From an uncultured Ruminococcus sp. (lineage in GTDB: Bacteria; Bacillota; Clostridia; Oscillospirales; Ruminococcaceae), in assembly GCA_946183385.1 (NCBI GenBank), contig CAMHBN010000076.1, forward strand, positions 1 through 8,005: a stretch of 8,005 nt of DNA, read 5' to 3'. Below, in pieces: positions 2,924 through 7,094 of this stretch (within the stretch, counting starts at the first letter, position 1; each line of letters begins with the position of its first letter). A program made the translations under genes and the position numbers. Below the pieces are notes generated by a model. It made no database searches and was not told the origin of the DNA. It worked only from the letters and a program-made list of their open reading frames with translations.

Positions 2924-4150
2924 ATGGATATTCGTATAAGTCCCTCAAAGCTCGCGGGCAGCGTTGATATTCCCGCTTCAAAGAGCTGTGCTCACCGCGC
3001 TCTTATTTGTGCTGCACTTGCTGATGGAGTTTCGCATATCAGCGGAGTTACCTTTTCCAAGGATATTGAAGCTACAATTAATGCTATGACTGCTCTCGGT
3101 GCGTCGTTTGAAGTTGATGGTACTGATATAACTGTGCACGGCATCTCCGAGTCCCCTGCCAATGCCGATATTGACTGCAATGAGAGCGGTTCCACACTTC
3201 GATTCGTGATTCCGATCGCCGCAGCTCTCGGAGTTGATTCTGTTTTTCACGGCAGAGGCAGGCTCCCCGAGCGTCCTATCGACATCTACAAGCGCGAACT
3301 CAGCAAGAATGGCGTGCGCTTTGTTACCGAGACTATGCCTTATGAGATATGCGGCAGGCTCACAGGCGGCAGATTTGAAGTCGAGGGCAATGTATCCTCA
3401 CAGTTTATCACGGGACTGCTCTTTGCTCTTCCGCTGTGTGAGGGCGATTCCGAAATTGTTCTCACATCTCATCTTGAATCACGTCCCTACGTGGATATAA
3501 CTCTCGATATACTCAGGCGATTCGGCATTGTTATAAACGAGACTGAGAACGGCTTCACTGTCAAGGGCAGACAGAAATATGTCCCGCATGACGAAAAGGT
3601 CGAGGGAGACTATTCGCAGGCTGCGTTTTTCTATGTCGCGAATGCTATTGGCTCGGCTGTCAACATCAATAATCTTGTATCTGACAGCGTTCAGGGCGAT
3701 AAGAAAATAGAAGACATTATTATAAAATCAACGAAAAATGCTGAAATCATCGGATTTAACGAGGACTGCTCGGATATTCCCGACCTTGTTCCGATTCTTT
3801 CAGTGCTCGGAGCTTACGGCAAGCAGAAGTCTGTCATATACAACGCTGAGAGGCTTCGTATCAAGGAGAGCGACCGTCTTGCTGCGTGTGCTGATATGCT
3901 CGGACGGCTCGGCGGAAACGTCACAGTGACCTCAGACGGTCTTATCATAGAGCCGAACGGAAGACTGCACGGCGGCGAGGTCAACAGCTTCGGCGACCAC
4001 AGAATCGTTATGGCGGCGGCTATAGCGGCTCTCGGAGCTACGGGCGACGTCATTATCCGCGGTGCGGAGGCGGCTGAAAAATCCTATCCCGACTTCTTCA
4101 GAGATTACACTTTACTTGGAGGTATTGCAAATGTCATCGATCTGGAATAA
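2924..4150 (+). CDS. aroA: 3-phosphoshikimate 1-carboxyvinyltransferase (EPSP synthase)
   Basis: The product transfers the enolpyruvyl group of PEP to shikimate-3-phosphate, the sixth step of the shikimate pathway, in the cytosol. It is 408 aa, slightly short for the family (~420-430). Visible conserved sites are ASKSCAHRA (K20, S21, R25), ESGSTLRF (~87-94), LPERPID (R117), VSSQF (158-161, Ser-Ser-Gln), SRPYVD (186-191), EGDYSQAAF (227-235), IPDLVP with catalytic D287, LRIKESDR with K314 and E315, FGDHRIVM (D358, H359, R360) and KSYPDFF (K386). All substrate-binding and catalytic residues I can check are present, so it should be active. The ATG at 2924 follows a G-rich site (GGGGG, 2912-2916) by 7 nt; an in-frame TTG at 2909 is less likely. 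It is first in a six-gene unit and overlaps the aroC homologue by 20 nt. Confidence 0.97.
   Translation: MDIRISPSKLAGSVDIPASKSCAHRALICAALADGVSHISGVTFSKDIEATINAMTALGASFEVDGTDITVHGISESPANADIDCNESGSTLRFVIPIAAALGVDSVFHGRGRLPERPIDIYKRELSKNGVRFVTETMPYEICGRLTGGRFEVEGNVSSQFITGLLFALPLCEGDSEIVLTSHLESRPYVDITLDILRRFGIVINETENGFTVKGRQKYVPHDEKVEGDYSQAAFFYVANAIGSAVNINNLVSDSVQGDKKIEDIIIKSTKNAEIIGFNEDCSDIPDLVPILSVLGAYGKQKSVIYNAERLRIKESDRLAACADMLGRLGGNVTVTSDGLIIEPNGRLHGGEVNSFGDHRIVMAAAIAALGATGDVIIRGAEAAEKSYPDFFRDYTLLGGIANVIDLE
4118..4122 (+). promoter_or_regulatory. Ribosome binding site that fixes the aroC start
   Basis: GGAGG lies inside the 3' end of aroA, 8 nt before the ATG at 4131. It decides for the 348-aa start over an in-frame ATG at 4062, which would add 23 residues encoded over conserved aroA sequence in another frame and matches no chorismate synthase N-terminus. 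Confidence 0.9.
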
Positions 4151-5177
4151 CAGGATCTCCATATCATTCTTCGGCGAAGCCGAGGGTGCTGCTATAGGTG
4201 TAACGATAGACGGTCTGCCTGCGGGCGAGTTCATTGACTCTGACGAGATACGCCGCTATATGGACAGGAGAACGCCCAATTCCTACAAGGACGAGAATAC
4301 GCGCAGAACTCCCCTCCCCCGTATTATGTCGGGCGTTTCGGGCGACCGTACTTCCGGCGGTCCGCTGTGTGCATTTATCCAGAATGTTGACAGGCGTCCA
4401 CGTGAGGAGCGCAGGAATGAGCTCTCAGCCAATACTCGCGTGGGAAATGCAGATTATACGGGAGCTGTACGCTTCCGCGGCTACAATGATGTTATGGACA
4501 GGAGCTCGCGCGCCGAAAAGCTGACTGCTCCGCTCTGCTTCGCGGGTGCTGTTTGCGCTCAGATACTGGAGCGCCGCGGTATCTTCACGGGAGCTCACAT
4601 TGCGCAGATACACAACATCAAGGACAACCCCTATGACAGGGTCAAGCTCGACCGCGACGCCGTCGTAAGCGTGAGATATAAGGACTTTCCCGTAATCAAC
4701 GACCGCAAGGGCTGGCTTATGCTCGAGGACATTGCAAAAGCTAAGGAAGCAGGCGAATCTCTCGGCGGTATTATCGAATGCGCCGCTGTGAATGTCCCCG
4801 CGGGCGTTGGCTCGCCGATATTCGACGGCCTCGAGAACAACATCGCTCAACTCATTTTCGGTATCCCGTCTGTTAAGGGCCTCGAATTCGGAGCGGGCTT
4901 CAGTACGGCGAAAATGGTGGGAAGTCAGAGCAGCGATGATTTCTACGTTGACGAGCATGGTCGTATGCTGACACGCACCAATAATCACGGCGGTATCCTC
5001 GGAGGTATTTCCTCGGGTATGCCGATAACCCTGAACGTAGCCTTCAAGCCCGTTCAGAACGAAGGCAGCGGCGGTCTCGGCGATACCTGTATCGTTCCCA
5101 AGGTCGTTCCGTGTGTGGAAGCCGCTGTGAATATAGCACTTCTCTCGAATATGCTCGATTACCCGAGCTTCTGTTGA
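4131..5177 (+). CDS. aroC: Chorismate synthase homologue with a lost active site
   Basis: The 348-aa product is clearly of the chorismate synthase family (EPSP to chorismate, FMN-dependent). Scaffold motifs remain: AIGVTIDGLPAG (21-32), SGVSGDRTSGGPL (67-79), LTAPLCFAGAVC (131-142), NVPAGVGSPIFD (221-232), GLEFGAGF (250-257), NNHGGILGGISSGMP (284-298) and CIVPKVVPCVEA (320-331). The catalytic signatures are altered. FGESHG is FGEAEG (His to E18). RPGHADY is RVGNADY (His to N106). The segment normally RGGGHFSGR is MDRSSRAEK (122-130). GRHDPC is GLGDTC (315-320). The stretch between KPT and GRHD is about 20 residues short. The frame is open and unbroken, with normal codon use and a good binding site, so it is not an obvious pseudogene. 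As written it is unlikely to make chorismate by the known mechanism. It may be a pseudoenzyme, a regulator or a new activity. The family call is firm; the function is not. Confidence 0.88.
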   Translation: MSSIWNNRISISFFGEAEGAAIGVTIDGLPAGEFIDSDEIRRYMDRRTPNSYKDENTRRTPLPRIMSGVSGDRTSGGPLCAFIQNVDRRPREERRNELSANTRVGNADYTGAVRFRGYNDVMDRSSRAEKLTAPLCFAGAVCAQILERRGIFTGAHIAQIHNIKDNPYDRVKLDRDAVVSVRYKDFPVINDRKGWLMLEDIAKAKEAGESLGGIIECAAVNVPAGVGSPIFDGLENNIAQLIFGIPSVKGLEFGAGFSTAKMVGSQSSDDFYVDEHGRMLTRTNNHGGILGGISSGMPITLNVAFKPVQNEGSGGLGDTCIVPKVVPCVEAAVNIALLSNMLDYPSFC

Positions 5178-5186
5178 GGTGATACA

Positions 5187-5780
5187 ATGCACGACGAAAA
5201 CATTTTCAAAATGTCGGAAATGGCTGACACCGAGATAAAGGACGTTCCTACGCTGAATATCCTTATCTGCTATCTGCTCTACAAGATAGGCAAGCCTGTC
5301 AGCGTCGAGCACCTGTACGATATCATCATCAATACGGGTGTGATAAACTACTTCTACTATCAGGACTCTATCGACTATCTGCTCACCAACGGGCTCATTA
5401 CCGAGGAGCAGGACGACAAGGGAGTTAGCTGCTATGTGCTCCAGCCGAAGGGAACTGTCTGCGCCAAGGAGCTCAAGACCTTTGCTCCCAAGGCTTACCG
5501 TGACAAGCTCGTGCTCGCGGCTCTGCGATATTTCGCAAGGCTCAAATATGAGCAGGAGATAAAAATAGAGTACATCGAGCTCGATAACGGAGTATATACG
5601 CATATACGCTGTCTCGACGTGAAAAACGACCTCATGGACCTCAAGCTTTTTGCTCCCGATATGGGACAGGCTAAGCTTATCGGTGAAAAGGTAATGCTCA
5701 ATCCCGCGGGCTTCTACGGCAAGGTCATCGAGCTCGCGCTCTCCAACGAGGAGGACCCTTATGACCTCACAGACAATTAA
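5187..5780 (+). CDS. DUF4364 family protein, winged-helix-like
   Basis: This 197-aa protein matches the DUF4364 family of Clostridia. Its N-terminal half (residues ~22-90) reads as a winged-helix fold: LNILICYLLYKIGKPVSVEHLYDIII, then YFYYQDSIDYLLTNGLITEEQ as the likely recognition helix and wing, then a strand pair with YVLQPKG. The C-terminal half (~95-190) is an alpha/beta region with an IKIEYIELDNGVYTHIRC strand pair. The fold suggests DNA binding or a protein interaction role, but no family member has a function I can name. The ATG is supported by GAGGTG (5176-5181), which overlaps the aroC stop codon, with a 9-nt gap between genes. Position after aroA-aroC makes a local regulator possible, though this is inference. 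No signal peptide or membrane segment is seen. Confidence 0.85.
   Translation: MHDENIFKMSEMADTEIKDVPTLNILICYLLYKIGKPVSVEHLYDIIINTGVINYFYYQDSIDYLLTNGLITEEQDDKGVSCYVLQPKGTVCAKELKTFAPKAYRDKLVLAALRYFARLKYEQEIKIEYIELDNGVYTHIRCLDVKNDLMDLKLFAPDMGQAKLIGEKVMLNPAGFYGKVIELALSNEEDPYDLTDN
5748..5754 (+). promoter_or_regulatory. Ribosome binding site of the small membrane protein
   Basis: GAGGAGG ends 6 nt before the ATG at 5761, inside the end of the DUF4364 gene. It is among the strongest binding sites in the window and is the main evidence that the 59-codon frame is translated. Confidence 0.85.
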
Positions 5781-5940: not shown

Positions 5941-6259
5941 TATAGGCTCAGACGGTCTGCACAGGGATACCGCGCTGTATGAGGACTCACATTTTATCGC
6001 CTTTATTCAGCCATACTTGGTCGATGAAAGAATAGAGGAATACCGCGAGGAGGCTCTTGCGCTCGCCGAAAATGAGCCCTGCGACAGGATAGTCATTTAT
6101 GCTGTCCTTGAATATGACGAGGCAAGAAGCACTCTCATATCTGCGGATCTTATGTGTAAAAGCGTTCCCTACGAGAAATATGTGGAACTGGCGTCAAAGC
6201 TGATAAACAGCTGCCGCCTTTTCTTTTTCAGAGGCAGGAAGGAGATAGACAATGAATAA
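5918..6259 (+). CDS. Unrecognised 113-aa protein
   Basis: I do not recognise this protein. It is acidic and predicted soluble, with no signal peptide. The layout suggests a small alpha/beta domain: a strand (SHFIAFIQPYLV, ~24-35), a charged helix (DERIEEYREEALALAENE, ~36-53), a strand (DRIVIYAVLEYD, ~56-67), and a long helix with a hydrophobic end (YEKYVELASKLINSCRLFFF, ~85-104). It has two Cys in the C-terminal part plus one at ~55. The ATG at 5918 follows AAAGGAG at 5899-5905 by 12 nt, longer than usual, so initiation may depend on coupling to the 59-aa gene it overlaps by 23 nt. It overlaps the dockerin gene by 8 nt. Overlap on both sides argues that it is a real operon member. Confidence 0.75.
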   Translation: MRTDPINSIGSDGLHRDTALYEDSHFIAFIQPYLVDERIEEYREEALALAENEPCDRIVIYAVLEYDEARSTLISADLMCKSVPYEKYVELASKLINSCRLFFFRGRKEIDNE

Positions 6260-7094
6260 GAAGCAAGCGCTCTCCGCGCTCCTCGCTGCGGCTGTTATGT
6301 GCTCCGCGGGAGCTTACGGTACGGCTAATGCCGAGGATACCGCTGCACATACGGTGACGGTCTACGATTTTGACGGCAATGTTATGGCAACTTTGAACGT
6401 CAGCGACGGTGCTCCGCTCGACCTTAATACCGTAGATACGTCTGTTCTTGAGAAGCACCTCGACGTCTATACTCAGATAGGCTTCAGCTCGTGGAGCTCA
6501 TATCCCGAGACGGTGACCGAGGATATCTCCGTGTACGCGCTCTATAAGAAGATGACTATATCTCTCGACGGAAAGCCGAAAAAGACCGAGTATTACTCCA
6601 AGGAGGGCAATATTGACCTCAGCGGACTTAAAGTCACTATCACCGTTGACAAGCAGCTGCCCGAAAAGGATGAACTGGGCAATTTCAGGATAGATAACGA
6701 GGTCCTGAGCATAGAGTCAAAGTGTACTGCTGTTCCTGCGACCCTTGAGGAGGCTTTTGCCTCCGGCATGACCGCTAATGTCAAGGTCTACCCCATCGAC
6801 AGCGAGAAGGAGATACTCTCCTACGACATCAGCTGCTTCCCTGAAATAGGCGATGTCGATATGAACGGAGCTGTCAATGCCTCCGATGCCTCCGAGATAC
6901 TGAAATTCTACTCGATAGCTTCGACCGGGAAAACTCCCGTGTATAAGGAGGGGCAGCAGAAACGCGCCGATATTGACAGGAACGGCAAGGTCGATTCCAA
7001 CGACGCCTCTATCGTGCTCGTGTACTACTCCGCCGCTTCTACGGGACAGGACACAAATATGGATAGAATGCTCGCAGGCAAACAAAAAATCTGA
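6252..7094 (+). CDS. Secreted protein with C-terminal type I dockerin
   Basis: This 280-aa protein has a classic signal peptide (MNKKQ, hydrophobic core LSALLAAAVMCSAGA, likely cleavage after A27 in TANA|ED). Residues ~34-100 resemble an InlB B-repeat-like module (TVTVYDFDGNV, then FSSWSSYPETVTEDISVYALYKK). Residues ~101-195 look like a bacterial Ig-like domain (YYSKEGNIDLSGLKVTITV). The C-terminus is a dockerin with two Ca2+-binding F-hand repeats: GDVDMNGAVNASDA (200-213) and ADIDRNGKVDSNDA (239-252), each followed by a helix. Dockerins bind cohesins on scaffoldins or at the cell surface; residues 10-11 of the repeats, which often set specificity, are Ala-Ser and Ser-Asn. No catalytic domain is seen, so the cargo is an adhesion or structural module. 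The ATG follows AAGGAG (6239-6244) by 7 nt. It is last in the aroA unit, an unusual place for a secreted protein. Confidence 0.92.
   Translation: MNKKQALSALLAAAVMCSAGAYGTANAEDTAAHTVTVYDFDGNVMATLNVSDGAPLDLNTVDTSVLEKHLDVYTQIGFSSWSSYPETVTEDISVYALYKKMTISLDGKPKKTEYYSKEGNIDLSGLKVTITVDKQLPEKDELGNFRIDNEVLSIESKCTAVPATLEEAFASGMTANVKVYPIDSEKEILSYDISCFPEIGDVDMNGAVNASDASEILKFYSIASTGKTPVYKEGQQKRADIDRNGKVDSNDASIVLVYYSAASTGQDTNMDRMLAGKQKI

Follow-up and report, generated by a model that had tools for sequence, protein, structure and literature searches.

A degraded chorismate synthase homologue retained behind aroA in Ruminococcus is apparently a maintained pseudoenzyme

The window analysed here is an 8,005-nucleotide stretch of DNA from an uncultured Ruminococcus sp. 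(contig CAMHBN010000076.1 of assembly GCA_946183385.1), comprising one entire contig (C76) of a 2.1-Mb genome that is assembled in 334 contigs and estimated to be 75% complete. Behind aroA, the gene for 5-enolpyruvylshikimate 3-phosphate (EPSP) synthase, it encodes a homologue of chorismate synthase (AroC) with a heavily altered active site, termed AroC' here, whose relatives, selection and possible role are the subject of this analysis. The locus comprises the following features:

4131..5177, + strand: AroC', a 348-residue chorismate-synthase-like putative pseudoenzyme with its stop at 5175-5177, identified by a PF01264 match and by clade placement in the tree
2924..4150, + strand: aroA (EPSP synthase), upstream of and overlapping AroC'; TIGR01356, 348.5 bits against a cut-off of 287.25
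4118..4122, + strand: GGAGG, a Shine-Dalgarno-like sequence inside aroA, 8 bases before the ATG at 4131, read directly
4131..4150, + strand: the 20-base overlap of the AroC' start with the aroA 3' end, as measured at the loci
5187..5780, + strand: gene for a DUF4364 protein (PF14277, profile match), the usual downstream neighbour of genes of the AroC' lineage (clade A, below)

AroC' belongs to the chorismate synthase fold by profile membership: it matches PF01264 at 256.5 bits (cut-off 27), with homology covering residues 11-343, and passes TIGR00033 (229.6 bits, cut-off 212.2); it falls under the cut-off of NF003793 (249.5 bits against 321). The original prediction held that this homologue had lost both catalytic histidines. 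Translation of 4131-5174 places F14-G-E-A-E-G19, R103-V-G-N-A-D-Y109 and M122-D-R-S-S-R-A-E-K130 where it had read them, and both histidines are indeed replaced, by Glu18 and Asn106. Degradation extends beyond the segment considered there into the GRHDP region (residues 315-320, GLGDTC), and also affects the KPTPSI motif, which we take to be the flavin mononucleotide (FMN) site. The altered motifs of the window copy, all on the + strand, are:

4170..4187, + strand: F14GEAEG19, the FGESHG motif, with Ser to Ala17 and the catalytic His to Glu18 (translation, alignment)
4293..4313, + strand: residues 55-61, ENTRRTP, replacing the substrate loop TxRxExD (alignment)
4437..4454, + strand: R103VGNAD108, the RPGHAD motif, with His to Asn106 and with Arg103 and Asp108 retained (translation, alignment)
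4494..4520, + strand: M122-K130, replacing the R-GGGHFSGR loop, with an acidic Glu129 near the start of a helix predicted at 125-148 (alignment, model)
5046..5063, + strand: K306PVQNE311, a degraded KPTPSI motif followed by a deletion (alignment)
5073..5090, + strand: G315LGDTC320, the GRHDPC motif, with the EPSP-contact Arg to Leu316 and with Asp318 retained (alignment)

Among the residues expected of a functional enzyme, the window copy thus lacks His17, His106 and the GRHDP Arg and keeps the catalytic Asp (Asp318); it departs from consensus at 32 of 90 canonical invariant columns. Sequencing or assembly error was rejected as the source of these changes: alignment with related Ruminococcus AroC proteins shows the same losses in the nearest relatives, including the isolate R. 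flavefaciens MC2020 (93% identity; FGESEG and RAGNADY), and degraded copies occur in isolates and in 46 of 47 named genome records, the 47th (L104) being intact.

To place AroC' among its relatives, PF01264 searches covered 60 relatives and then 125 genomes of the genus, with a second search that used the window protein as query. Two AroC lineages emerge, clade A encoded behind aroA and clade B elsewhere in the genome, which separate in the tree (A 100/100, genus B 100/100); AroCs from other families of the order branch near one or the other. In the full rows examined, clade B has GESHG, R-P-x-H-A-D and GRHDP intact, suggesting that it is catalytically active; it is about 35-42% identical to AroC'. 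Both AroC' and B were found in 91 of the 125 genomes, AroC' without a full B row in eight (the window's genome included), an intact clade-A gene without B in nine, B alone in 12, and no full row of either in five; of the 99 genes classed as AroC', 94 were checked at each residue and the remainder were assigned by score. No genome among the 125 combined an intact clade-A gene with B. The 71 genomes that are at least 90% complete divide likewise: 62 carry AroC' and B, one AroC' only, six intact A only, two B only, and none intact A with B. In this scoring G035 counts as AroC' only despite B fragments, as does G084 despite two intact motifs in its clade-A copy, and G125 counts as neither despite a weaker unassigned match. 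The expectation that an organism with such a gene needs another AroC is therefore borne out at the sequence level, since a full canonical B row accompanies AroC' in 91 of 99 genomes. The pairing is seen within single molecules: in R. flavefaciens MC2020 (G007) both genes lie on one 1,334,063-base scaffold, and in the 3-contig assembly G034 on one 3.6-Mb contig. Further isolates with AroC' are YRD2003, YL228, MA2007, ND2009, SAb67 and 007c.

In the window's own genome a second AroC is absent from the assembly. Its assembled contigs (75% of the genome by estimate) hold no PF01264 match besides AroC'. The nearest sister, G105, has an AroC' 98% identical to the window's, and its B gene occupies 9195-10220 in a stretch of 19 kb (L190) that two contigs of the window's genome, C204 and C257, match at 88-95% identity. 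As C204 ends at position 5681 of that stretch and the first base of C257 corresponds to position 10397, the B gene of the window's genome would fall in the assembly gap between them. A similar explanation is probable for G006 (93% complete), which has AroC' and no match to B: the 8.7-kb B neighborhood of its relative G005 gives one 68% match there, of 846 bases, and shorter ones, so that the flanks appear to be missing too.

The loss of active-site residues was then counted throughout clade A. This residue census took 103 of the 108 clade-A rows (94 AroC' and nine intact), including G026, which is cut by a contig end, and excluding G077, G080, G083 and G084 (partial or broken) and G140. All eight key residues are retained in each of the nine intact proteins, whereas every one of the 94 AroC' has lost between two and eight. 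Nearly all AroC' lack the GRHDP Arg (93 of 94, counting two gaps) and Gly128 (93 of 94, with Glu or Asp in its place in 87). In 88 of them one or more of the three residues His17, His106 and catalytic Asp has been lost, the Asp being still present in 24; Asp108 is present in all 94. Both histidines are missing in 14 rows, so the double loss that was proposed holds for the window copy and is a local trait, not a general one. The former catalytic positions vary across the family, His17 being occupied by H, Q, E, N, D, S or A and the Asp by D, E, I, R, P and others; KPTPSI is mostly lost, and loop lengths differ between lineages.

These losses coincide with the ligand site described for other chorismate synthases. 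For the Paracoccidioides enzyme, PMC11633415 lists contacts at Arg46, Arg103, Arg129, Arg354, Arg362, His106, Ser127, Ala128 and Thr54/55; PMC7144000 describes active-site histidines, and PMC3509576 names His110 and Asp367 as active-site residues and reports that Ala in place of the catalytic His of N. crassa (equivalent to His106) costs approximately 20-fold. We mapped the published contacts onto AroC' by motif and spacing. Across 39 intact AroCs, 90 columns are at least 95% constant; in 29 AroC', 42 of these columns show 90% retention or more and 22 are retained in less than half of the proteins, in a comparison that omits the partial rows L046, L064 and L065. The lost columns fall mainly in FGESHG, TxRxExD, the S-x-D-Y segment, RGGGHFSGR, AVKG, KPTPSI and GRHDP. 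At that 90% level none of ten EPSP-contact positions is kept, against 42 of the 80 other invariants (Fisher p 0.0014), the ten having been picked after the invariant-column result was known.

Selection has nevertheless preserved the remainder of the protein. Pairwise dN/dS (the ratio of nonsynonymous to synonymous substitution rates), which the original prediction had proposed to estimate in close relatives, is 0.04-0.11 for AroC' where dS is unsaturated (it is saturated in three pairs), indicating purifying selection in the same range as for B, aroA and the DUF4364 gene. When 31 independent AroC' pairs are pooled, one of them with saturated dS, dN/dS reaches 0.148 within the pocket loops against 0.056 in the rest of the protein; in four intact clade-A pairs the corresponding values are 0.050 and 0.052. 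Relaxation is concentrated in the pocket, and is partial even there. In-frame stops are absent from 107 of the 108 clade-A rows, several of which are cut by contig ends. The lone broken gene, in G084 (L147, 5924-7102), retains FGESHG and RPGHAD with its frame in three pieces; an assembly error is possible in this 64% complete genome.

Several positions have also become fixed within AroC' that are not characteristic of its intact relatives. On the + strand of the window these include:

4626..4631, + strand: Asn166-Pro167, in 94 of 94 AroC' and none of nine intact aroA-linked AroC
4668..4670, + strand: Ser180, in 90 of 94 AroC' and one of nine intact
4713..4715, + strand: Trp195, in 92 of 94 AroC' and none of nine intact

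Against the same nine intact clade-A proteins, T25 (88 of 94 AroC' versus none), G208 (88 versus one), an acid at residue 129 of the window protein (87 versus none) and C348 (90 versus two) behave likewise. A further 43 positions are common to AroC' and intact clade A and rare in 58 B and outgroup rows. The pocket was modelled poorly at first; a deeper alignment brought the predicted local distance difference test (pLDDT) score to no more than 72.7. In the models a loop that follows a strand carries 166-167, two helices carry 180 and 195, and 129 is found close to where the long helix 125-148 begins. When the fungal enzyme was modelled by docking, an inhibitor occupying the site in the manner of EPSP touched the backbone amide beside Arg129 (PMC11633415). 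An acid at this contact site would therefore be predicted to repel or mimic the substrate.

The tree suggests an order for these events. AroC' forms one clade (SH-like approximate likelihood ratio test 100, stem 0.28), which holds without the pocket columns, and with outgroups included the intact clade-A genes form a basal grade. In an RpoB tree of 27 rows (excluding G014, a wrong-frame row; G032, a short row; and G035, partial) the 14 B carriers form a single clade, with support (92/92) below the starred level, and all nine intact-A genomes lie outside it. With parsimony on the 103-row tree, two changes suffice for the GRHDP Arg, and likewise for Gly128 and for Thr307, against 12 for His17, 10 for His106, 11 for the Asp and 14 for Arg129. 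Three metagenomic proteins that fall outside the main AroC' clade (P0114, P0105 and P0058) show pocket losses without N166, P167 or W195, which suggests that the pocket degraded before the new residues appeared, and did so in more than one line. Four proteins from metagenomes or metagenome-assembled genomes have lost one to three of the eight key residues: P0114 lacks the GRHDP Arg and His17, P0105 the GRHDP Arg, Arg129 and Asp, P0058 Ser16 only, and P0226 the GRHDP Arg only, the other 117 of the 118 new proteins nearest to an intact copy retaining all eight. These four are possible living intermediates of the transition.

The simplest history is one gain of B, a release of A from catalytic constraint, and a subsequent re-use of A. 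The genus ancestor would have carried one intact AroC behind aroA, as the trees suggest; carriers of B would constitute one derived clade, in line with RpoB, and B would have taken over catalysis. By comparison across the family, the GRHDP Arg, Gly128 and Thr307 then disappeared nearly throughout, and His17, His106 and the Asp changed many times in parallel, as fold-wide residues stayed and N166, P167, S180 and W195 became newly fixed. The carboxylate at 129, at the helix end that holds EPSP in the enzyme, is predicted to fill or repel the site. In the least certain step, the retained scaffold and new residues would bind another protein, with AroA as first candidate because adjacency and the 20-base overlap are preserved and the two are encoded together wherever both lie on one contig. 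The ligand and cofactor residues are lost, the scaffold is under strong purifying selection and an intact second AroC is present in most genomes examined; we therefore propose, with moderate confidence, that AroC' has ceased to produce chorismate and serves another protein as a non-catalytic partner, with AroA the most plausible candidate. Conservation of the scaffold without a common new pocket points to such a non-catalytic, probably protein-binding role, and AroC' would be a maintained pseudoenzyme family, not a product of decay.

Several observations weigh against this reading. The pocket loops are still constrained, with a dN/dS of 0.148 that is not near 1, and pocket residues are widely retained (Arg103 in 84 of 94, His106 in 77, Arg129 in 62), so a residual or new ligand is possible; six of 94 retain all three of His17, His106 and the Asp, and for seven of the 94 rows the genome has no full B row. 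The pocket is modelled with low confidence, residues 88-128 lying under pLDDT 50. As B and AroC' each arose about once, their association amounts to approximately one event, not 91. Linkage to aroA is by itself no sign of a new partnership, since it is ancestral. Finally, rate covariation singled out no partner. Partial rate correlations with AroC' in 22 genomes are 0.53 for DUF4364, 0.30 for AroA and 0.25 for B (0, 21 and 3 of 500 permutations as high), and 0.23 between AroA and B themselves (1 of 500); at 41 AroC' loci the matrix correlation is best for AroA (r 0.80 versus 0.69) and per-genome means favor DUF4364 (rho 0.84 versus 0.74). These measures are uninformative, because AroA and B also correlate and the two locus measures favor different partners. 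The DUF4364 protein and B remain alternatives to AroA as partner. A necessary partnership with DUF4364 is weakened by L109, L115 and L141, in which no DUF4364 gene was found 3' of the clade-A gene with more than 5 kb available downstream in each.

A bolder form of the partner role can be offered tentatively, though we would sooner bet against it: AroC' may be an obligate non-catalytic subunit of the end of the shikimate pathway, its site plugged by its own carboxylate 129 as an EPSP mimic, with N166-P167, S180 and W195 docking onto AroA or the replacement AroC and setting activity or assembly. The intact ancestor would already have performed this additional role, and the gene could for that reason survive catalytic replacement by a foreign AroC. 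That the old pocket was instead rebuilt for another substrate, with acid 129, Arg103 and Asp108 in a new site, is unlikely in our judgement. The newly fixed residues (Glu/Asp129 included), the constrained pocket loops, the invariant Asp108 and the frequent Arg103 would all suit a new enzyme, but the former catalytic positions vary by lineage and the loops differ in length, so no common new chemistry is visible, and the KPTPSI motif is mostly lost as well. It is rather more doubtful that AroC' serves B, in a mixed tetramer, in place of AroA. The frequency of full B rows among AroC' genomes and the dimer-tetramer state of M. tuberculosis chorismate synthase (PMC7144000) agree with such a subunit, as does the AroC'-B rate correlation; that correlation, however, barely exceeds the one between AroA and B and is below that with DUF4364 in the same genomes, and the two proteins are of different AroC lineages with low identity.

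That AroC' still acts as a chorismate synthase alongside B, as an isozyme with weak or conditional activity, appears improbable. Such a role would draw on the common retention of His106, whose replacement by Ala in the N. crassa enzyme carries the cost given above, and on the six proteins with all three catalytic residues, but the GRHDP Arg and the Gly before Arg129 are each lost in 93 of 94, the window copy is without both His, the Arg-rich loop and the KPT loop, and an intact clade-A gene was never found together with B in the 125 genomes. We give least credence to a displaced gene in slow neutral decay, retained through its overlap with aroA. Losses do differ between branches and accumulate, and the G084 frame is broken; the low dN/dS and near-universal open frames, the 90% or higher retention of 42 among the 90 canonical invariants, the newly fixed residues and an overlap of just 20 bases all speak against it. 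Random decay is rejected by the purifying selection and the open frames, and the earlier suggestion of a pseudoenzyme or new function accords with 94 broken pockets in open frames, under purifying selection that is strongest outside the pocket.

AroC' shares with chorismate synthase (PF01264, TIGR00033) its homology over residues 11-343, its fold and its aroA linkage, the last as in intact relatives of the clade; it differs in that His17, His106, the GRHDP Arg, Arg129 and the RGGGHFSG and KPTPSI loops are replaced in the window protein. The closest counterparts are the intact aroA-linked AroCs of basal Ruminococcus (G015, G029, G079, G097, G103, G115, G120, G132 and G137; also L104), which belong to the same clade and share the aroA neighbor and, except in G137, the DUF4364 neighbor. 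Unlike AroC', these proteins keep all eight key residues and lack N166, P167 and W195, and their nine genomes have no second AroC. Pseudoenzymes are paralogues that have lost catalysis and serve as partners or regulators, and AroC' resembles this class in its conserved scaffold, its degraded active site and, in most of the genomes, a presumably active homologue in the same cell. It differs in that this homologue comes from another AroC lineage and is not a tandem duplicate.

Shikimate-pathway enzymes are essential, and are drug or herbicide targets. Here an essential enzyme has apparently been replaced by another lineage's version, and its remains, apparently made into a pseudoenzyme by that replacement, are kept through most of the genus (99 of the 125 species-level genomes). 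A search of the open-licence literature turned up no description of an AroC pseudoenzyme, from Ruminococcus or otherwise, most subscription journals lying outside that search; an algal genome paper (PMC11528492) contains both 'chorismate synthase' and 'pseudoenzyme'. The series from intact through partial loss to gutted proteins within one genus, with the replacement placed on the tree, raises the question of the non-catalytic job of the AroC scaffold, and of whether ordinary AroC proteins share a hidden job of this kind. If AroC' does act as a non-catalytic partner, this would be an unusual fate for an essential enzyme. Several AroC' proteins are named chorismate synthase in public records, and metabolic models of rumen and gut Ruminococcus may for this reason assign the reaction to the wrong gene.

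Across the genus, the 20-base overlap recurs in 48 of 50 loci measured (50 of 55 loci entered this and the locus rate comparison), the exceptions being L076 and the intact L104 with 23 bases. The aroA gene was found in 109 of the 125 genomes; 108 of these have the clade-A gene, in 107 on the same contig, and G078 is the lone genome with aroA and no match to a clade-A gene. B-only genomes were considered as a sign that AroC' is dispensable, and rejected as such: G008 (99% complete) and G004 (90%) have neither AroC' nor aroA, which points to absence or non-assembly of the locus as a whole, or else to a rearranged end of the pathway. No clean empty site for AroC' was seen among the genus genomes. 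In two genomes, G010 (contig C69) and G024 (contig C37), aroA itself is broken beside an intact AroC', in one as a partial row with one TGA and in the other as two pieces. Elsewhere in the window, a tyrosine recombinase at 978-1967 on the - strand scores under the cut-off of all 12 NCBIfam families listed (XerC 221.6 against 335.15). Downstream of AroC', at 6252-7094, lies a gene for a dockerin type I protein; similar proteins are encoded near AroC' in several relatives, which fits a cellulosome-forming Ruminococcus.

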